IMG/VR virus record: IMGVR_UViG_3300003543_000057
Coordinates: 1 to 20,514 of that record
Reading direction: 5' to 3' (one strand)
From: a virus
DNA: 20,514 nt
The notes under the pieces are model-generated. The model searched no databases and was not told where the DNA came from. It saw nothing but the letters and a program-made list of their open reading frames with translations. The translations under genes and the position numbers were made by a program. This document shows, in pieces, positions 5,441-14,785 of this stretch (position 1 is its first letter; the number at the start of each line of letters is the position of its first letter).

Positions 5441-6577
5441 TTACACTCCTACCTTGACGTCAACAACAACTACGCCGTAGTCAAGATCACTGATCTTGGC
5501 CTGCTTGTAGCTTTCGTTTTCTGCCAATAGGTTCGTTTTCTTAGTCTCCATCCAAAACTCAACAGCACTTTCGCTGGTAATGGAGAAGTCTTCAGAAGGT
5601 TGCCATTTATAGTCAGGGTGCTTACCAAACGCACATTGGACAGCACCAGAACCCATGATCACACCACGAGAGTGTAATTCAGAAGAGCCATAGTCGAAGC
5701 CTTCCTGGCCAGTCCATACAGCTGTAGTAGGATCATTGCCGGCATACTGGCGGAGCCCACACATCTCAATCTCAGAATCGTTCAGACCCCAACCTAATTG
5801 GGTACCTGCAGTGCTCCCGAAGAAGTGATCTGCTTGAACGATGAGCAAAGAGCCCAGCTTACCAATAACACCTTTTATGTTACGGTTGTTTGCACCACGA
5901 ACATCACCAGACCGGACAATAGTCTGATAGCCTGCAGTATCCTTACGGATCATAGCAGCCATAGTCGCGTCAACTACGAAAAGCCATACAGGCTCACCAT
6001 TTTCCAGGCGGTAAGGGTCCAAAGGACGGCGAATGCCACCTGCGGAGAATCCCTGGCTGGTTTTGATGGTCGTTTCAATGTCGGTCAACACATCAAAGGT
6101 TAGGGTACTACCCAAGTCGATAATGTGTGATGGTGCCTGACCTAAGCCACCTTGGACGGAGTCAAAAATCGACTGGTCCTTGAAGCGGATAAAGAGGTCT
6201 GACAACTTTGACCGTGAATCGGAGTGTTGACTGATCTGTAGATCACCAATGTCGACGGCATCAAACTCGTCTCCATTATCTACTACCAACCGGTAGCGGT
6301 CAACTGTGATTTTGTCTGAGAACTTACGCTTGGACTCACCTTCGCCATAGGCAGTTTCTTTGCCTTTCTTTGCTTTCCCAGAAATATTGCCTGAGAAGTC
6401 AAATACGACTGTGTGGCCCCCTTTCGCACTGGTGTTATTGACCTGATAAACAACTGAGTCTTTGGTCGAACCGGTCATTGGAGACCAGAATGATTTAGAA
6501 GCAGCTTGTACCAAGCCTTCACGCATCCAGCGCTTGCGTTTAAGGTCAGACGATAAGGCTACAACACCTGTAGTCAT
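5441..6577 (-). CDS. Major capsid protein, N4-gp56 family
   Basis: 378 residues from the ATG of MTTGVVALSSDLKRKRW. That start has AAAGG at 8 nt; an in-frame ATG 18 nt upstream has no ribosome site. Features matching the N4-gp56 capsid family (PF13252, DUF4043) are an N-terminal RKRWMREGLVQAASKSFWSP segment, a GNISGKAKKGKETAYGEGE region, DRYRLVVDNGDEFDAVDIG, and ISQHSDSRSKLSDLFIRFKD, with the C-terminal half VWLFVVDATMAAMIRKD. The fold of this family is HK97-like. The preceding scaffold-like gene and following small capsid-associated gene support the call. It lies downstream of its own likely promoter at 6641-6670, as expected for the most abundant late protein. Confidence 0.88.
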   Translation of the reverse strand: MTTGVVALSSDLKRKRWMREGLVQAASKSFWSPMTGSTKDSVVYQVNNTSAKGGHTVVFDFSGNISGKAKKGKETAYGEGESKRKFSDKITVDRYRLVVDNGDEFDAVDIGDLQISQHSDSRSKLSDLFIRFKDQSIFDSVQGGLGQAPSHIIDLGSTLTFDVLTDIETTIKTSQGFSAGGIRRPLDPYRLENGEPVWLFVVDATMAAMIRKDTAGYQTIVRSGDVRGANNRNIKGVIGKLGSLLIVQADHFFGSTAGTQLGWGLNDSEIEMCGLRQYAGNDPTTAVWTGQEGFDYGSSELHSRGVIMGSGAVQCAFGKHPDYKWQPSEDFSITSESAVEFWMETKKTNLLAENESYKQAKISDLDYGVVVVDVKVGV

Positions 6578-6640
6578 GATAATTACCTTTAGCAATGTGT
6601 ATGAAGGGTTAGTTGCTTAGGTAATCGCGGAGTACTTAAC

Positions 6641-6809: not shown

Positions 6810-7034
6810 TTAAAACGACTCTGGTTGAGCTACGGCGCGTACTAGCTCCATAATACCAACTTGTAGATTAGTATTACCTATAGCAACCCAACGTTGATCA
6901 ATCGCCGCTTCTAGCTTCAACTTGCGCACAAGCTCTTTCAGTTGCTCGCCTGTGTTCTTAATTTCATTCATAAGGTCTATCTCCTGTTGTGACAGGTCAC
7001 GATAGCCCTTAATCTTCTTATGTTGATTATCCAT
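6810..7034 (-). CDS. acb2: Acb2-like cyclic nucleotide sponge (anti-CBASS)
   Basis: 74 residues from the ATG of MDNQHKKIKGYRDL; a TTG codon two residues upstream could also serve. The pattern QHKKIKGYRDLSQQEIDLMNEIK, a coiled region, then DQRWVAIGNTNLQVGIMELVRAVAQPE is that of the Acb2/Tad1 hairpin family (PF24729; T4 Vs.4 and PaMx33 Acb2). As I recall from the Acb2 literature, Tyr11 and Lys26 contact the cyclic dinucleotide; with the ATG start this protein has Tyr11 and Lys26 at exactly those positions. Such proteins bind CBASS signals in the cytoplasm and prevent effector activation. The ATG overlaps the end of the Tad2-like gene by 8 nt, so the two are translationally coupled. Ligand range is not determinable from sequence. 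Confidence 0.85.
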   Translation of the reverse strand: MDNQHKKIKGYRDLSQQEIDLMNEIKNTGEQLKELVRKLKLEAAIDQRWVAIGNTNLQVGIMELVRAVAQPESF

Positions 7035-7251
7035 AGACAATTACCCAATCCTCTGCTAGTAAGTCAGTCTGGCTACAGAGCCAAGGAACAAATTGATCGT
7101 CCACTGTCTTCATATAAATATATGGTAGTGTCATCTTACTATGCTCATCCGGCACTTGTAACTCCAGATACATGTCTTTGCCATTCCAGCCTAAACGCTG
7201 TACCCGAGTACCTGGTGAGCTCATTACTGCTATTGCTGCTCCAATATCCAT
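7027..7251 (-). CDS. tad2: Tad2-like signal sponge (DUF2829, anti-Thoeris)
   Basis: 74 residues; ATG after AGGGG at 5 nt. Matches DUF2829 along its whole length: residues 1-10 helix (DIGAAIAVM), 19-32 RLGWNGKDMYLELQ, 43-49 PYIYMKT, 56-69 PWLCSQTDLLAEDW. DUF2829 is the family of Tad2, which sequesters the cyclic ADP-ribose-type signal of Thoeris defence, and some members also bind cyclic dinucleotides. This copy is compact: the segment between the two conserved halves is only about 10 residues. It lies 8 nt after the scaffold stop and overlaps the Acb2-like gene, so it belongs to the late operon. DUF2829 membership is clear; anti-Thoeris activity is inferred from the family. Confidence 0.8.
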   Translation of the reverse strand: MDIGAAIAVMSSPGTRVQRLGWNGKDMYLELQVPDEHSKMTLPYIYMKTVDDQFVPWLCSQTDLLAEDWVIVYG

Positions 7252-7259
7252 ACTAACCC

Positions 7260-7961
7260 CTAAAATATAGTCTTTTTGTAGGTCTCTTCAAAGTCACCAG
7301 TCTGAGCCTCTACCGACGGCTCTCTACCACCTGCCACCTTACCTAAGTTGAGAGTATCGTCGTCGGTAGAATCTGTGGAGCCTTGTATAACTTTATCGGC
7401 CTTCAGGAACTCTCCTGCTTCAGCCAGGAACTCTTCAAATGTAATATCTCCGGCCTCAAGCTTACGCTTGAATCTTGGTGGGAGGTCATTTTCAACTACC
7501 TCATCTGTTAGTGTGATACCTGTAGACTCGGACCATACAGCCATCTGTTCATTGCGAATCTCAAGCTCAGACTTGTTAGCCGATTTCGTAGCTATTTCTT
7601 CTAGCTCAGTCTCCAGAGCTGTTGTAGCCTCTTGCTCGTAGTCGTTCAGTTTTTCTCTCCAGGCGTCTGGATTCTCTTTCTTAAGCCTGTGTAATTCAGC
7701 TGCCTGAACCGCAGAGAGTTTACCACCTTGCGTTAGAGCGTGCTCCTGAAGACCCTCAGCTATAGCTTTCTGGCGTTTAGCTTCTTGCTGCGCCTTAGTA
7801 TAGCCAGCTTGTGTATCACGATAGCGCCGCTCTGATGTAACAGCGAATAACGTAGGCTCATCTAGATCTTGAGCTACGTCTTCTGGTAGAGTCCATTTGC
7901 CGTCTTCAGCCTTCGTCATCTGACTTACTAGTGTGTCTACCTTTTCTTTAAACTCGGACAT
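7260..7961 (-). CDS. Capsid scaffolding protein
   Basis: 233 residues, highly charged, mostly predicted helix. The central part (about 55-140) is Gln, Glu, Lys and Ala-rich and likely coiled-coil. A second helical block (RFKRKLEAGDITFEEFLAEAGEFLKADK) is followed by an acidic, Thr/Asp/Gly-rich linker (STDSTDDDTLNLG) and a short conserved-looking tail ending FEETYKKTIF. This layout, with a basic or short C-terminal tail, is typical of phage scaffolds, and position two genes before the major capsid supports it. The ATG follows GGAGGG at 7 nt. It is the first gene of the leftward operon, facing the divergent control region. No protease motif is present, so a protease-scaffold fusion is unlikely. 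Confidence 0.78.
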   Translation of the reverse strand: MSEFKEKVDTLVSQMTKAEDGKWTLPEDVAQDLDEPTLFAVTSERRYRDTQAGYTKAQQEAKRQKAIAEGLQEHALTQGGKLSAVQAAELHRLKKENPDAWREKLNDYEQEATTALETELEEIATKSANKSELEIRNEQMAVWSESTGITLTDEVVENDLPPRFKRKLEAGDITFEEFLAEAGEFLKADKVIQGSTDSTDDDTLNLGKVAGGREPSVEAQTGDFEETYKKTIF

Positions 7962-8004
7962 GCGAATCCCTCCGTAGGGGTGCTGAGAATAATTGATTTT
8001 CTTA

Positions 8005-8033
8005 TTTACAATATAACTATATCATGATATTCT
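8005..8033 (+). promoter_or_regulatory. Rightward promoter for regulator and terminase genes
   Basis: TTTACA, 17 nt, TATTCT, ending 62 nt before the ATG of the ribbon-helix-helix-like gene. The surrounding 8-bp inverted repeat ATTTACAA / TTGTAAAT (8004-8011 and 8033-8040) is made by the two opposed -35 boxes. The inner palindrome ATATCATGATAT is a candidate operator. Confidence 0.5.
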
Positions 8034-8039
8034 TGTAAA
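8010..8039 (-). promoter_or_regulatory. Leftward promoter of the virion operon
   Basis: Minus-strand TTTACA, 18 nt, TATATT. It fully overlaps the rightward promoter: each -35 box covers or abuts the other's -10 box. It lies about 50-75 nt upstream of the scaffold start. The palindrome ATATCATGATAT (8019-8030) is in the shared spacer, suitable for a regulator that could bind both promoters. Confidence 0.5.
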
Positions 8040-8095
8040 TGGAATTAATTATTTTATTTATTTTCTATCTACTTATTAACTAGTGAGGTCATAGC

Positions 8096-8275
8096 ATGGC
8101 AGCAAAGACACACAGCTTCTGTACTAAGAATGATGCTGATACAATGTTCGTGGATGCTTTGCGCATTAGTGAGCGACGTGAAGGACGTGTCAACTTTTCA
8201 TGGGTAGTTATTCAGGCGCTCAAAGAGTACTCAGACAAGAGACTACAGGAGACTAAAAGTGGATCACCAAAGTAG
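8096..8275 (+). CDS. Small ribbon-helix-helix-like regulator
   Basis: 59 residues. A short N-terminal strand (THSFCTK) is followed by a helix (NDADTMFVDALRISERREG), a turn (RVNFS) and a second helix (WVVIQALKEYSDKRL). This is the spacing of Arc/MetJ-type ribbon-helix-helix proteins, which dimerise and bind palindromic operators. ATG preceded by GTGAGGTCATAGC. It is the first gene rightward of the divergent promoter pair, the usual place for an autoregulator of late genes. Its last 17 nt overlap the start of the probable terminase small subunit. The fold is judged by pattern only; an alternative is a small terminase-associated DNA-binding protein. Confidence 0.6.
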   Translation: MAAKTHSFCTKNDADTMFVDALRISERREGRVNFSWVVIQALKEYSDKRLQETKSGSPK

Positions 8276-8780
8276 ATTACTTTGTCTAGCTCATCTGAAG
8301 AATGGAGAAACTCCCGCCAAAGCAGCTGAAAAGGTAGGTCTTAGTTACGCTACAGCGCTTAAGCTTCGGAAACAGCTCCATGAGGCAGAGAGCAGTGATG
8401 CAATTCTAGAGTTGTTCGATTTACCTGAAGCTGCACTCGAGATACTCCTAAACGCGGTAACTAATGAGCTTACTCCAGCCATCGAGGCATTCGGTGTAGG
8501 GGAACTAGTTGAAGAACAGGTGCATGAACTAAGTATGTCCGTAGCCGGTGGCAAGTTACTGGATCAGCAGATGCAAGCTGCTGCTATTGCCCTGACAGAC
8601 AAGATTGCACAGGTAGCAGTTATAGCGAACAACGCTGAGACTGTCCTAATTCTTGCCAAAAGTCTGAGTGAACTGCATGTGAGTTTCTTTGGCGCAGGCG
8701 GTGGTATTAGTAGAGGTGGCAGTAGTAATGAACTGGGGCTACCTGCTCCTGGGTCTTTTGAGAGACACTTACGGTCATAG
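8259..8780 (+). CDS. Probable terminase small subunit
   Basis: 173 residues with a GTG start chosen because CAGGAG lies 6 nt upstream, inside the previous gene. N-terminal residues 1-45 form a helix-turn-helix (LLCLAHLKNGETPAKAAEKVGLSYATALKLRKQLHEA) of the kind used to bind packaging sites. The middle is a long helical region (about 46-145) suited to ring assembly, and the C-terminus is Gly/Ser-rich and flexible (GAGGGISRGGSSNELG), ending basic. The large terminase gene follows 117 nt downstream. Role as small terminase, recognising cos or pac DNA and regulating the motor, rests on HTH plus oligomerisation-like architecture plus position. Confidence 0.68.
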   Translation: MDHQSRLLCLAHLKNGETPAKAAEKVGLSYATALKLRKQLHEAESSDAILELFDLPEAALEILLNAVTNELTPAIEAFGVGELVEEQVHELSMSVAGGKLLDQQMQAAAIALTDKIAQVAVIANNAETVLILAKSLSELHVSFFGAGGGISRGGSSNELGLPAPGSFERHLRS

Positions 8781-8897: not shown

Positions 8898-10490
8898 ATG
8901 TTATGTAATATCGCGCGTGACGATTTTGTCGCTTTGTATAGCGAGGAGCTATGGAAGACCCTAACTACTCAACCAGAAGATTTCAATACCCTTGTACAGG
9001 ACTATTTGCCCTCAAAACTGTGGCGCTTAAACAACTTGTACTCTATTATTGACAAAGCTGGTGACCCCATACCGTTTGTCATGAATCGAGCTCAACTAAT
9101 TGTATATGCTGCGAGTCTCGAGCACTCACGGCTTATAATACTTAAGAGTAGGCAACAGGGGATTTCGACTTTCTGGCTTATATCATACTTCGATGACCTG
9201 ATTACCAAGAGTAATACCAACTGCGGGCTTATGGCACAGGGCAAGGACGAAGCAGGGACTTTGTTAGAACGGCTGAAGCATGTGTGGAATACTCTTGATC
9301 CATGGGTAAAAGAACTCTTTGAGCTACGAGTGCTCAAAGACAACTCCGCAGAGTTCAAGCTGTCTAATAATTCAACCATGTTCATACGTACCTCATTCCG
9401 TTCTGCGACCTTACAGAGGTTACATATCAGTGAGTTAGGCAAGATAGCTAACAAATACCCAGAACGAGCTAAGGAAACCAAGACTGGCACATTGCAAGCA
9501 CTGGCTCCAGGTAATACAGGGGTCATTGAGTCTACTGCAGAAGGTGTTAACATGTTTAAGTACATGTGGGATGCTAGCATTAAACAAGATGGGGCAGGGG
9601 TGCTAGCAGGTAAAGATTTCAAGCCTGTATTCCTATCATGGCTAGACGATCCTGATTGTGTCGAATTCGAGACCCAGTATCCTGATCAAGAAGAGCTAGA
9701 TTACTTTGCACGGCTAGAACTAGAGTTAGGGCGTGTTATATCAGTAGAGCAACGTAACTTCTGGATTGCCCAACATCGAGAACTAGAAGGTGACATACAC
9801 CAGGAATATCCAGCTACTCCCGAAGAAGCCTTCACTGCAGCGCAGGACGGCACTTACTGGGCTAAGCGCTATCTTGAGTGTGTAGTTCGCGTAGGGCATA
9901 AGAAGCCGTATTCTGAATTGTATGACACTAACTTAGATGTTTATGTAGTGCTAGATGCCGGTCGTAGTGATTATATGGTGCTAGTGTTTTTTCAAGTGTG
10001 GAGAGGACAGATTCGAATCATCTACGAATACTACAATACTGGAGAATGGTTAGGGCACTATGTAACTAAGGCCGCTGAACTAAAGGATGAGTTTGGGTGG
10101 GATATAGTACATTGGTATCTTCCTCATGATATGGGTGTGATTGATCTAACCCAGGAAGAAAACAAAACTAGGGAGGAGATACTTCACGACCTCGGAGTGT
10201 ACAATACTACCATCTTAGCCAAGAATTCAAGGTCGGCAGGTATAGAAGAAGTCAGACAAGCCTTTTCTAATATCTGGATTAGTTCTGACTGTGTGTATAT
10301 CGAGCAGTGTTGCCTTAACTATACTAAAGACTGGAATCCGCTACTTGAAGTATGGCGCGATGAACCTAAGCGTAACCGCTGGTGCCATGGCGCGGATACT
10401 GTTAGGTACATGATACAGACTGTAGCGTATCATTTGAGTGACGGCGAGAGCGACGATTATAATCCAGTTGTTAGTGGTATGGCACTATAA
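8898..10490 (+). CDS. terL: Terminase large subunit (packaging ATPase and nuclease)
   Basis: 530 residues; ATG after GGAG at 5 nt. ATPase domain: Walker A-like SRQQGIST (84-91), Walker B with catalytic Glu in LHISEL (175-180, Glu179), and coupling motif STAEG (212-216). RNase H-like nuclease domain: YVVLDAGRSDY with Asp353, LPHDMG with Asp411, and HGADTVRY near the end with Asp500. This is the complete order for a two-domain terminase of normal length. It works at the portal vertex, cutting concatemers and driving DNA into the prohead by ATP hydrolysis. The Walker A is of the deviant terminase type (no GK[ST]). Unusually, the gene is transcribed away from the head genes, and no portal gene follows: after its stop the next 740 nt are non-coding. 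Confidence 0.93.
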   Translation: MLCNIARDDFVALYSEELWKTLTTQPEDFNTLVQDYLPSKLWRLNNLYSIIDKAGDPIPFVMNRAQLIVYAASLEHSRLIILKSRQQGISTFWLISYFDDLITKSNTNCGLMAQGKDEAGTLLERLKHVWNTLDPWVKELFELRVLKDNSAEFKLSNNSTMFIRTSFRSATLQRLHISELGKIANKYPERAKETKTGTLQALAPGNTGVIESTAEGVNMFKYMWDASIKQDGAGVLAGKDFKPVFLSWLDDPDCVEFETQYPDQEELDYFARLELELGRVISVEQRNFWIAQHRELEGDIHQEYPATPEEAFTAAQDGTYWAKRYLECVVRVGHKKPYSELYDTNLDVYVVLDAGRSDYMVLVFFQVWRGQIRIIYEYYNTGEWLGHYVTKAAELKDEFGWDIVHWYLPHDMGVIDLTQEENKTREEILHDLGVYNTTILAKNSRSAGIEEVRQAFSNIWISSDCVYIEQCCLNYTKDWNPLLEVWRDEPKRNRWCHGADTVRYMIQTVAYHLSDGESDDYNPVVSGMAL

Positions 10491-10657
10491 CGTCATGTGC
10501 GTCATGTGATTACTATTTGATATTGTGTATGTTAGGGGTATGTATACACATATAATAATATTAATAATTCTATAGATATTATTACATTTAATAGTGTGAA
10601 TAGTCATTACATGTCGTACATAGATACTTCAGATAGCACTCAGTCGATACTCTATAG

Positions 10658-10729
10658 CTACCAACTACTAACTCTACTAGTTATTATTGATATCATTGAC
10701 ATAAAAAGCATATAACTACCAACTACTAA
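10658..10729 (+). repeat. Pair of 14-bp direct repeats
   Basis: CTACCAACTACTAA occurs at 10658-10671 and 10716-10729, 58 bp apart start to start, each preceded by TATAG or TATAA. Exact 14-bp repeats in an otherwise unconstrained AT-rich region suggest a protein-binding site such as an iteron or packaging-site element. Confidence 0.6.
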
Positions 10730-10979
10730 ATGTTGTGAACTTTCACGCCGCCGTAACCTCCCCTGGGGGCACCAGCGAGGAGAATACTGACTAGTATATT
10801 AGTATGTTAGAATATGCTGACATTCCAATGTTATCACATACCTATGTGTTAATATCATGACATGCGTGCATGCCTATACAGTAAAATAGTAATATTCGTC
10901 ACATGAATAGTGGACATAGGTATAAATGATTGTACACCAGGCTCTAGTCTACTTATCTCCCATGAGTCTATCAATACTG

Positions 10980-11017
10980 TAGGTATAACAAACTCGCGAG
11001 CGAGTTTGTTATACCTA
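10980..11017. repeat. 38-nt near-perfect palindrome
   Basis: Arms TAGGTATAACAAACTCG and CGAGTTTGTTATACCTA are perfectly complementary over 17 bp, separated by the 4-nt loop CGAG. No U-tract follows on either strand (AAAG on one side, ACAG on the other), so it is not an ordinary terminator. As DNA it could extrude a cruciform or bind a dimeric protein; as RNA it would form a very stable hairpin. Confidence 0.8.
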
Positions 11018-11093
11018 AAGCAATGAAAGCCTTATGTAAGCTACGTGATAGTCGAGTATTCACCAAATGAATACAGTGTATAAGCACAAAGAA

Positions 11094-11122
11094 TTGTACA
11101 ACAGTAGTGGATGTGATATTAT
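11094..11122 (+). promoter_or_regulatory. Strong sigma-70-like promoter
   Basis: TTGTAC, 17 nt, TATTAT, with the expected start near 11128-11130, about 100 nt before the ATG of the unknown gene at 11229. The spacing is ideal and no other promoter of this quality is seen in the preceding 600 nt. Confidence 0.65.
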
Positions 11123-11126
11123 GTAC

Positions 11127-11153
11127 ACATGAATTGATTAACTCAATTCATGT
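11127..11153 (+). promoter_or_regulatory. Start-site dyad / 5'-terminal hairpin
   Basis: Perfect 11-bp arms ACATGAATTGA and TCAATTCATGT around loop TTAAC, positioned so that transcription from the promoter at 11094 would begin inside the left arm. It can be an operator overlapping +1 or a hairpin at the transcript 5' end that slows RNA decay. Confidence 0.6.
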
Positions 11154-11228
11154 TGTTTAACAATCTAGCCTGTCAGACCACTATTGTCACATGTGTGGCA
11201 ATATTCAACCTAACTAAAGGTATATATT

Positions 11229-11675
11229 ATGTCAGTTCTTAAAGTAAATTTTGAATCAATCTACTCTGTGTTAGAGGCAAACCAAGACAAGAAAGTCAAG
11301 GATATCATGAACTTACTGATACCTTTGATGGTGTCGAAACAGAGAGACTCGAATAGTAGAACTAATGATGATGGTGAACTAGAGATATTCTGTTATTATC
11401 ACAAAGAGTGGGAACTTACTACTCAGGTGGAATACGGAGCAAAATCTGGCTCAAAAACAGGCTTGAATTCAATGTGTAAGGTTGGTGTGAATGCATGGAC
11501 CAAGCAGCAACGTGATTTCAAGACTAACAAGGCTGAATTACTTCAAAAAGTAATTGATGAAGACTTGTCAGTAGAAGACCTAAAAGATGAGATTCTCAAA
11601 CTTGAGGATATCAAGGATTCGGTCATACCACTGATTGACTATCATCATGATCTAGCTCTAGTAGAGAATGTCTAG
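11229..11675 (+). CDS. Unknown phage protein, paralogue of the 13983-14510 gene
   Basis: 148 residues; ATG after AAAGG at 8 nt. Not a family I can name. It shares with the minus-strand gene at 13983-14510 the block GLNSMCKVGVNAWTKQQRDFK (here about residues 79-99) and a following helical pattern ending in LEDIKDSV versus LEAARGVV, as well as an N-terminal helix with KKV..IM. No catalytic motif, signal peptide or membrane segment is visible; the protein is acidic and mostly helical. It has its own strong promoter, a 5' hairpin and a good terminator, so it is a one-gene unit probably expressed at a high level, perhaps early. Function unknown. Confidence 0.8.
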   Translation: MSVLKVNFESIYSVLEANQDKKVKDIMNLLIPLMVSKQRDSNSRTNDDGELEIFCYYHKEWELTTQVEYGAKSGSKTGLNSMCKVGVNAWTKQQRDFKTNKAELLQKVIDEDLSVEDLKDEILKLEDIKDSVIPLIDYHHDLALVENV

Positions 11676-11758
11676 ACTGGTATTCTACGGACTGGTGGTG
11701 TGTTTGTGCATCACCTTTCCACCGTTGATTTTAGTCATACTCTTTTTGAGATTAATCT

Positions 11759-11783
11759 AGGACCCCTCGTGGGTCCTTTTTTT
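11759..11783 (+). terminator. Intrinsic terminator of the 11229 gene
   Basis: AGGACCC / GGGTCCT stem with a 5-nt loop and a run of seven T. It is 83 nt after the stop codon and faces no gene immediately downstream. Confidence 0.85.
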
Positions 11784-11869
11784 ATACTCAAAATCTAAGG
11801 GTAATACTACTGAGCATGAATTATAATTGGCCCTGGTTAACTAAGAGAGGGCGGACATCTGCTACTGTT

Positions 11870-11985
11870 TCCATGTACACCATGTATTTACTATTTAAAT
11901 TTATAATATGTATTCTTTAATATTAAATATATCATAAATATAGCCTATATATACAGACCCAGAATCTCGACATGGTGTACATGGA
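11870..11985. repeat. 16-bp inverted repeats flanking an AT-rich tract (candidate origin)
   Basis: TCCATGTACACCATGT at 11870-11885 and its exact reverse complement at 11970-11985. The 84 nt between are almost entirely A and T (runs such as TATTTAAATTTATAATATG and TTAATATTAAATATATC), as in a DNA unwinding element. Each arm is itself an imperfect dyad (CATG..CATG). Candidate replication origin or large operator; function is inferred. Confidence 0.6.
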
Positions 11986-12058
11986 CCTTTTTTGGCCTAA
12001 CTCCTTGATTTTTAACGCTTTTTTCCTATCTGCCACCCTCACTATGCCTAAAAAAGTC

Positions 12059-12158
12059 CGCTATTTAAGAAGATCAAATTCTAGGCTATCCTAACCAATC
12101 CGGTCTAATTTAGACCTTCTTCTATCGTAGTGTAAAGAAATCATCTACTTAAATAGCG
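12059..12158. repeat. Nested inverted repeats
   Basis: Outer arms CGCTATTTAAG (12059-12069) and CTTAAATAGCG (12148-12158), perfect over 11 bp. Inside them lie AGAAGA / TCTTCT just within and a compact hairpin GGTCTAA-T-TTAGACC (12102-12116). The arrangement can fold into one branched structure about 100 nt long, as RNA or as DNA. No known RNA family recognised. Confidence 0.5.
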
Positions 12159-12244
12159 CCGAACCTCTTTCATCAGCTATATCCAAAAGTTATAACTATC
12201 TCCATAAAAAATACAAAAAGTTATTATACTTTTACTTTTGACTG

Positions 12245-12253
12245 TGCTATAAT
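12245..12253 (+). promoter_or_regulatory. Extended -10 promoter
   Basis: TGCTATAAT, a consensus extended -10, with a poor -35 (TTATAC at 12224, 18-nt spacer). The expected start near 12260 leaves a leader of about 17 nt with AGGAAATCTT before the ATG at 12277. It drives the three overlapping genes up to 13289. Confidence 0.6.
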
Positions 12254-12276
12254 ATGCTTACAAAATAGGAAATCTT

Positions 12277-12633
12277 ATGAAATATCATGTAACAATGCTA
12301 GCACTAAATACCGTCACAGTAGAAGGCGCCACCATCGACAAGGTAACCGACAAACTCAATAATCTCACATTAGTTATTGAGGCTAACACTAGAAAAGGCG
12401 CCATATTAAAGGTACAAACTATGACACCAGCACCACCATATACCTACTTAGTTTACCTGCATGACAATAGGACAAAAGCATTCAGGATAACTATTGCAGT
12501 ACCACAAGAATCGTATAGACGGTATAGGCTAACAGTTCTTGCAGACTCGCAAGCACAGGCCCTGCGTCAATTGGCAGTAATCATCCCTAAGACAACATAT
12601 GAACTAAGACACATAGGAGAAGTAAATGTTTAA
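12277..12633 (+). CDS. Unknown small protein with internal repeat-like domain
   Basis: 118 residues; AGGA at 6 nt before the ATG. Alternating hydrophobic strands and helices, no catalytic motif, no signal. The C-terminal third (YRLTVLADSQAQALRQL, then KTTYELRHI) resembles the whole of the next 53-residue protein (YKITIRASSISSAIKTI, then TTTYQLRSI), which suggests a strand-helix-strand unit of about 45 residues that has duplicated. The frame ends 8 nt inside the next gene. First gene of a three-gene operon with a SprT-like protease. Function unknown. Confidence 0.7.
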   Translation: MKYHVTMLALNTVTVEGATIDKVTDKLNNLTLVIEANTRKGAILKVQTMTPAPPYTYLVYLHDNRTKAFRITIAVPQESYRRYRLTVLADSQAQALRQLAVIIPKTTYELRHIGEVNV

Positions 12634-13982: not shown

Positions 13983-14510
13983 CTAAGCAGCTTCGTCTTC
14001 GTCCAAAGCAATATATGCCTCAAGTGCTGCACTCATCACCACAGGGTCAGCAGCTAGCAGCGCCTCGGCACTTTCAAAGGCCAGCTCAGAAACAGGAAAG
14101 GCTTCAACCACTCCACGTGCAGCTTCTAGTTCATCTAGCTTAGCCTGAATATCACCAGGCAGCACGTCCCCATTAGATACTGCATCGAGCAGCGCTTCTT
14201 TACCTTTCTTAAAGTCACGTTGCTGTTTAGTCCACAAAGAGGTGCCAGCTTTGCACATGGTATTCAGTCCAGAAGCTGAATTAGCTTTGCGACCGAATTC
14301 AACGAACTCGACAGGTAACCACTTCTTGAAGTAATAGTCAAGCACACCTACTACATCACCGTTCTCGCCACGTACTACGCTTGTAGCAGAACCACCAGCG
14401 CCCTTAGCAGAGCACAGTTCGGTAACTTGCTCCATAATAGTTGAAACTTTCTTTCCTTCGTTTGCAGCCAGGAAGGCATGCAACTCTAGGAATGCTTTTT
14501 TTACAGTCAT
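13983..14510 (-). CDS. Unknown phage protein, paralogue of the 11229 gene
   Basis: 175 residues from the ATG of MTVKKAFLELHAF, chosen because GGAG sits 6 nt upstream; two in-frame ATGs further up lack a ribosome site. Shares GLNTMCKAGTSLWTKQQRDFK and the following Leu-rich helix with the plus-strand protein at 11229-11675, plus KKV..IM near the N-terminus. The extra C-terminal tail is acidic and Ala-rich (EALLAADPVVMSAALEAYIALDEDEAA). Base composition is richer in GC at third positions than the 11229 copy, so the two diverged long ago or came from different sources. No catalytic motif. Followed directly by a terminator. Function unknown. Confidence 0.8.
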   Translation of the reverse strand: MTVKKAFLELHAFLAANEGKKVSTIMEQVTELCSAKGAGGSATSVVRGENGDVVGVLDYYFKKWLPVEFVEFGRKANSASGLNTMCKAGTSLWTKQQRDFKKGKEALLDAVSNGDVLPGDIQAKLDELEAARGVVEAFPVSELAFESAEALLAADPVVMSAALEAYIALDEDEAA

Positions 14511-14590
14511 ATTGTTCTCCATAGACATCTACTAAAGCAAAATGCTCAAGCAGACAGTTATAGTACCACAACTAAAAACAAAAGTATATA

Positions 14591-14756: not shown

Positions 14757-14785
14757 TTTACAATTCGTAAATAGTAGCCTATAAT
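14757..14785 (+). promoter_or_regulatory. Promoter of the replication operon
   Basis: TTTACA, 17 nt, TATAAT, about 22 nt before the ATG at 14808. Just upstream are GAATA / TATTC boxes (14731-14745), and the -35 itself forms TTTAC-AATTC-GTAAA; either could bind a regulator. Confidence 0.65.

Follow-up and report, generated by a model that had tools for sequence, protein, structure and literature searches.

The window, by which we mean the whole stretch of 20,514 nucleotides analyzed here, carries two divergent and overlapping promoter sequences between its terminase genes and its virion genes, and the first gene to the right of them belongs to a family of ribbon-helix-helix proteins. We propose, with a probability of about 0.6, that the assembly genes of this phage, which is lytic-type and podovirus-like, are served by an autoregulated divergent promoter, at which one repressor would jointly shut off the terminase and virion operons. 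A regulator gene adjoining overlapping divergent promoters is a feature of Arc-like or TetR-like autoregulated divergent promoters, and the layout of the window corresponds to it. The candidate operator overlapping both promoters is strong in many relatives and weak in the window, which, judged by its sequence, is one of the weaker cases among them.

Divergent promoters between the terminase and virion genes

The intergenic stretch containing the promoters is 134 bp long and lies between the start codon of the leftward gene, ending at position 7961, and the start of the rightward 59-codon gene at position 8096. The rightward promoter, TTTACA-17-TATTCT, spans 8005–8033; its −35 box TTTACA occupies 8005–8010, where sister phages have the identical hexamer, and its −10 box TATTCT (TATAAT in the sisters) occupies 8028–8033, preceded at 8025–8026 by the TG of an extended −10 element. 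The leftward promoter, TTTACA-18-TATATT on the minus strand, spans 8039–8010, with its −35 box TTTACA at 8034–8039 and its −10 box TATATT at 8010–8015. The two promoters share 24 bp and together cover 8005–8039, and both spacers fall within the 16–18 bp of a sigma-70 promoter. The hexamers match the sigma-70 consensus at 9/12 and 10/12 positions; the sisters, which have TATAAT, reach as many as 11/12, and the window −10 boxes are the poorer ones.

The first-pass annotation had named these same two promoters, and our results bore it out. In a scan of the 20.5-kb window for promoter-like sites scoring at least 9/12 each, they formed the only opposite-strand pair with an overlap of at least 10 bp. 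When the 134-bp intergenic region was shuffled 3000 times with dinucleotides preserved, an equal pair (overlap at least 20 bp) arose in only 0.6% of the shuffles, so the observed pair is unlikely to be due to chance. The annotation's further statement, that only one polymerase could be accommodated at a time, is reasonable on steric grounds given the 24-bp overlap.

We also considered that in the window phage the promoter pair might be a decayed remnant or a chance product of AT-rich DNA, with the late genes starting elsewhere. The region is AT-rich, further weak promoter-like sites lie close by at 7983–8012 (plus strand) and 8079–8051 (minus strand), and both the −10 boxes and the dyad described below are weaker than in relatives. 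Against this stand the shuffling result (P 0.006), the uniqueness of the pair in the window, its position, which is homologous to that of conserved pairs in relatives, and the ribosome-binding-like sequences GGAGGG and TGAGGT upstream of the two divergent genes; we therefore regard a remnant or chance origin as quite improbable.

Gene context

The rightward genes are, in order, that for the 59-residue protein, the small terminase subunit gene terS (8259–8780, plus strand; phrog_18995, E 6e-10), which starts with GTG inside the end of the gene before it, and the large terminase subunit gene terL (8898–10490, plus strand; phrog_2, E 1e-17). The 17 bases shared by the small gene and terS (8259–8275) suggest translational coupling. 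The leftward virion operon begins with a minus-strand gene at 7260–7961 (phrog_24492), scaffold-like by position only, and includes the major capsid protein gene at 5441–6595 (minus strand; phrog_334, E 1e-61; PF13252). A gene for a Tad2-like anti-Thoeris domain (PF11195, E 3e-23) lies within this operon at 7027–7251, also on the minus strand.

A viral contig of 39.3 kb contains a stretch 99.995% identical to the window; its leftward arm holds virion genes and its rightward arm runs from the terminase toward replication genes, and on the circular map of the contig the leftward arm extends, on the same strand, to the portal and other virion-like proteins. The closest named phages are Pseudoalteromonas phage PH1, Vibrio phage VPMS1, and relatives of Edwardsiella phage KF-1, with terminases 47–53% identical. 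The gene order is Kafunavirus-like, with related terminase and capsid, the terminase being about 47% identical to that of KF-1. A search for phage RNA polymerase (PF00940) gave no match in 14 genomes, with control genomes equally silent. In the near-identical genome, a check of larger proteins gave portal, ligase, helicase, thymidylate synthase, and nuclease, with no RNA polymerase of the phage kind among them. Rfam and tRNA scans of the window found nothing.

Elsewhere in the window, two related genes of one family (phrog_10459) lie on opposite strands at 11229–11675 (plus) and 13983–14528 (minus), and two stretches downstream of terL, 10490–11229 (about 740 bp) and 11675–12277 (about 600 bp), contain few or no gene-like frames and have no Rfam match. 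The strongest promoter-like site in the window, TTTACA-17-TATAAT at 14757–14785 (plus strand), is upstream of primase-region genes. Its −35 box lies within TTTACAATTCGTAAA, which scores 11/12 as a dyad of the kind described below. This dyad is a possible second site for the 59-residue protein; it may also be a chance occurrence, since 11/12 was reached at four places in the 39-kb genome.

A dyad formed by the −35 boxes in relatives

For comparison we collected 66 homologous divergent regions, or 68 when those of Vibrio phage VPMS1 and Edwardsiella phage ZHX are counted. Both promoters scored at least 9.5 with an overlap of at least 10 bp in 27 of the 66 regions, relative to 1.3 expected from shuffles. 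As sequence evidence for the promoter pair, this conservation is stronger than the window shuffles. The divergent region of a typical relative contains TKTACA-N0-3-TGTAMA, and each half of this motif is the −35 box of one promoter. A perfect dyad (12/12) was found in 12 of the 66 regions (0.09 expected) and a dyad of at least 11/12 in 29 (2.1 expected), or in 31 of 68 (1.8 expected) with VPMS1 and ZHX included, with 24 of these 31 regions also having −10 boxes 16–18 bp away on both sides (0.075 expected); these enrichments are optimistic because the motif was chosen after the sequences had been read, and about half of the relatives fall short of 11/12. VPMS1 and ZHX, which are cultured phages, were examined after the motif had been fixed, and both carry the dyad with both −10 boxes. 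Because −10 boxes stand at promoter spacing on both sides in 24 regions, we take the dyad half-sites to be the −35 boxes themselves, which would account for the usual promoter overlap of 12–14 bp in relatives, equal to the length of the dyad. In a second check with the motif already fixed, the perfect dyad occurred once per genome, at the divergent region, in 5/5 genomes having one; in whole-genome scans at 10/12 most matches were due to chance.

A dyad at this position could also serve activation of the late promoters, by the small protein or by a host factor, instead of repression. Some ribbon-helix-helix proteins do activate, and −35 boxes such as TGTACA are imperfect. The dyad, however, extends over both −35 boxes, as is usual for sites of repression, and the promoters of several relatives are near consensus and should need no activator. 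Activation is therefore unlikely, and we continue with repression as the preferred reading.

The sister clade and the decayed or rearranged dyad of the window

In the sister phages L002–L004, TTTACA-17-TATAAT is present in both directions with an overlap of 18 bp, and the 78-bp region that encloses these promoters is symmetric at 26–32 of 39 positions in L002–L004 and L006–L008. The conserved dyad in these sisters is built from the −35 half-sites plus their flanks. Pairing across it was 82% and fell to 40–52% once the partner columns were slid, indicating that the dyad is real. Seven pairs had changed on both sides relative to 4.6 in shuffles, a covariation drawn from six sequences and too weak to establish selection. 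A reading of the sister dyad as an RNA hairpin was set aside, since covariation is weak and the predicted transcription starts would lie at the outer arms, so that one transcript would not hold both arms.

By hand alignment to the sisters, the window has lost some five bases from between the −10 box of the rightward promoter and the −35 box of the leftward one. The window has lost most of the dyad symmetry, its best identity over the 78 bp being 56%, and the homologue of the sisters' leftward TATAAT would be TATAGT at 8016–8021, just 12 bp from the −35 box. What the window retains is an inverted repeat, ATTTACAA / TTGTAAAT, whose 8-bp arms at 8004–8011 and 8033–8040 contain both −35 boxes as the left (rightward promoter) and right (leftward promoter) half-sites and are homologous to the dyads in relatives. 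The limits of this repeat are those of the interval 8004–8040 singled out by the first-pass annotation, which had overlooked that the −35 boxes lie within inverted arms. An 8-bp inverted repeat was reached in 15% of the intergenic shuffles (P 0.15) and is not significant alone; similarly, the best compact dyad in the window scored just 10/12 (P 0.14). We propose that the inverted repeat is a remnant of a ribbon-helix-helix operator. The window operator appears to have decayed or been rearranged, and protein binding at this site is therefore something that we infer.

The annotation had instead placed an operator at a perfect 12-bp palindrome, ATATCATGATAT, in the shared spacer. The palindrome is present at 8019–8030, but a palindrome of this length was reached in 10% of the intergenic shuffles (P about 0.10) and is not significant alone, and in the hand alignment it falls where the sisters, with the sequence ATTATATCATTATATAAT, have two facing −10 boxes. 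We rejected an operator as its best reading because the sisters keep only the facing −10 boxes, ATTATA...TATAAT, and not the palindromy; the palindrome is probably part of two facing −10 regions.

The small gene upstream of terS

The gene at 8096–8275 (plus strand) encodes the 59-residue protein that we propose to be an autorepressor, an assignment drawn from family alignment, a predicted model, a fold search, and family matches. A gene of 49–75 codons from this one family lies directly upstream of terS at all readable loci (about 80 relatives); members are present in VPMS1, ZHX, Amaethon, and PH1, and a diverged copy is present in MW202744. The window protein alone gave no match in Pfam or PHROGs, whereas family members matched RHH_3 (Pfam, 2.5e-6), an Arc-like repressor family (phrog_3180, 2.7e-5; 11 members), and a CopG structure (PDB 9kkd, E 0.0023). 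In the ribbon-helix-helix (MetJ/Arc) superfamily a short strand at the N terminus precedes two helices, and the dimer binds DNA by means of its paired strands. The predicted model of the window protein, a monomer, has helices at residues 13–29 and 34–55 (pLDDT 82) and an unassigned N-terminal strand, as would be the case if that strand forms only in the dimer. The six best structure matches in a fold search with this monomer model were ribbon-helix-helix proteins, with weak E-values. The earlier suggestion that the first rightward gene is ribbon-helix-helix-like thus held for the family and not for the window protein taken alone, and we assign the predicted fold from the family-level evidence. 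Among phage records, a search with the sister-type protein found nothing, and one with the VPMS1 protein found the KF-1 relatives. Existing labels of family genes, those at L117 2237–2407 and L120 936–1097 included, differ, being "head completion protein" in VPMS1 and MW202665 and "transcriptional repressor" in MW202744.

The labels and the position of the gene raise another explanation, in which the protein assists packaging and the dyad is a site near terS recognized by terminase (pac or cos). The small gene always adjoins and overlaps terS, there is one site per genome, and two records carry the head completion label. On both sides, however, the distance between dyad half and −10 box is that of a promoter at a frequency far above chance, an arrangement for which packaging would have no use, and members of the family resemble Arc-like and CopG repressors; a packaging role for the dyad seems improbable to us beside the repressor reading.

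Proposed mechanism

In the model that we favor, a host-type sigma-70 polymerase would start from the interlocked promoters rightward into the small gene, terS, and terL and leftward into the virion operon. The ribbon-helix-helix protein would be the first product of the rightward operon and would bind the inverted half-sites that double as both −35 boxes, closing both directions at once and thereby keeping the amounts of terminase and virion proteins in balance. We further speculate that replication, by adding operator copies, would dilute the repressor and allow late expression to rise.

The first-pass annotation had left two forms of control open, the operons being either mutually exclusive or jointly repressed. 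Joint repression fits the conserved operator-like dyad. In the mutually exclusive form, polymerase would be forced by the overlap into one of two alternative states, with either the terminase or the virion genes transcribed, and an overlap of 24 bp does make simultaneous occupancy of one DNA copy implausible. However, both operons encode assembly functions needed together, a single shared dyad points to joint and not opposed control, many genome copies per cell would blur exclusion on each copy, and a second, opposing regulator was not seen at the leftward side. In addition, the two promoters of the sisters nearly mirror each other and match the consensus equally well, and this symmetry, together with the bases shared by −35 boxes and half-sites, argues against a mutually exclusive switch, which we consider very unlikely, and for balanced joint control.

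More tentatively, a large group of lytic-type phages may share this one-site late-gene regulator, that is, a self-encoded ribbon-helix-helix repressor whose operator half-sites are both late −35 boxes, which would fix the packaging/capsid ratio and be timed by repressor dilution; we would not yet call this generalization likely. The timing and balance of terminase versus capsid are rarely known in phages that have no evident polymerase or late sigma factor themselves, and if the model is correct, one conserved site and one protein of 50–60 residues would do both. A gene family at present labeled hypothetical or head completion protein would thereby gain a function, and the site would be a case of −35 boxes coinciding base for base with operator half-sites. 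The cultured phages (KF-1 relatives and VPMS1) allow a direct test of the proposed control.

Comparison with known systems

A literature search, with most subscription journals outside its scope, found no description of an autorepressor acting on terminase and virion genes in such phages. Autorepressors on overlapping divergent promoters are already known, and what would be new here is their use for terminase and virion genes. The tetR-tetA promoters are divergent and overlapping, and an autorepressor controls both by way of palindromic operators; unlike the present case, that system has the TetR fold, drug induction, and separate gene functions. In the immunity I region of phage P22, Arc is, like the protein here, a ribbon-helix-helix protein of about 50 residues encoded by the first gene of its own operon, and the neighboring mnt gene is transcribed divergently from a nearby promoter. 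The target of Arc is an antirepressor of a temperate phage, whereas the genes here are a terminase operon and a divergent virion operon, and the window protein could not be measurably linked to Arc by sequence. That Arc is autogenously regulated is stated in the title of Youderian (1982), cited in PMC2629481.

In conjugation of plasmid pLS20, the overlapping divergent promoters Pc and Pr are under the regulator Rco, encoded at one side as in the window (PMC4207663). Rco loops the DNA between two operators at unequal promoters, whereas here there is one site with near-symmetric promoters, and Rco is not described in that paper (PMC4207663) as a ribbon-helix-helix protein, unlike the window family. 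Close parallels also include KF-1 and ZHX (Kafunavirus), VPMS1, and PH1, which have the gene order of the window, terminases about 47–53% identical, and a small gene from the family described above. The dyad with both promoters is present in VPMS1 and ZHX; in the Kafunavirus/VPMS1 type the dyad is compact (14 bp) and the promoters overlap by 14 bp, whereas in the window the half-sites are separated and the overlap is 24 bp.
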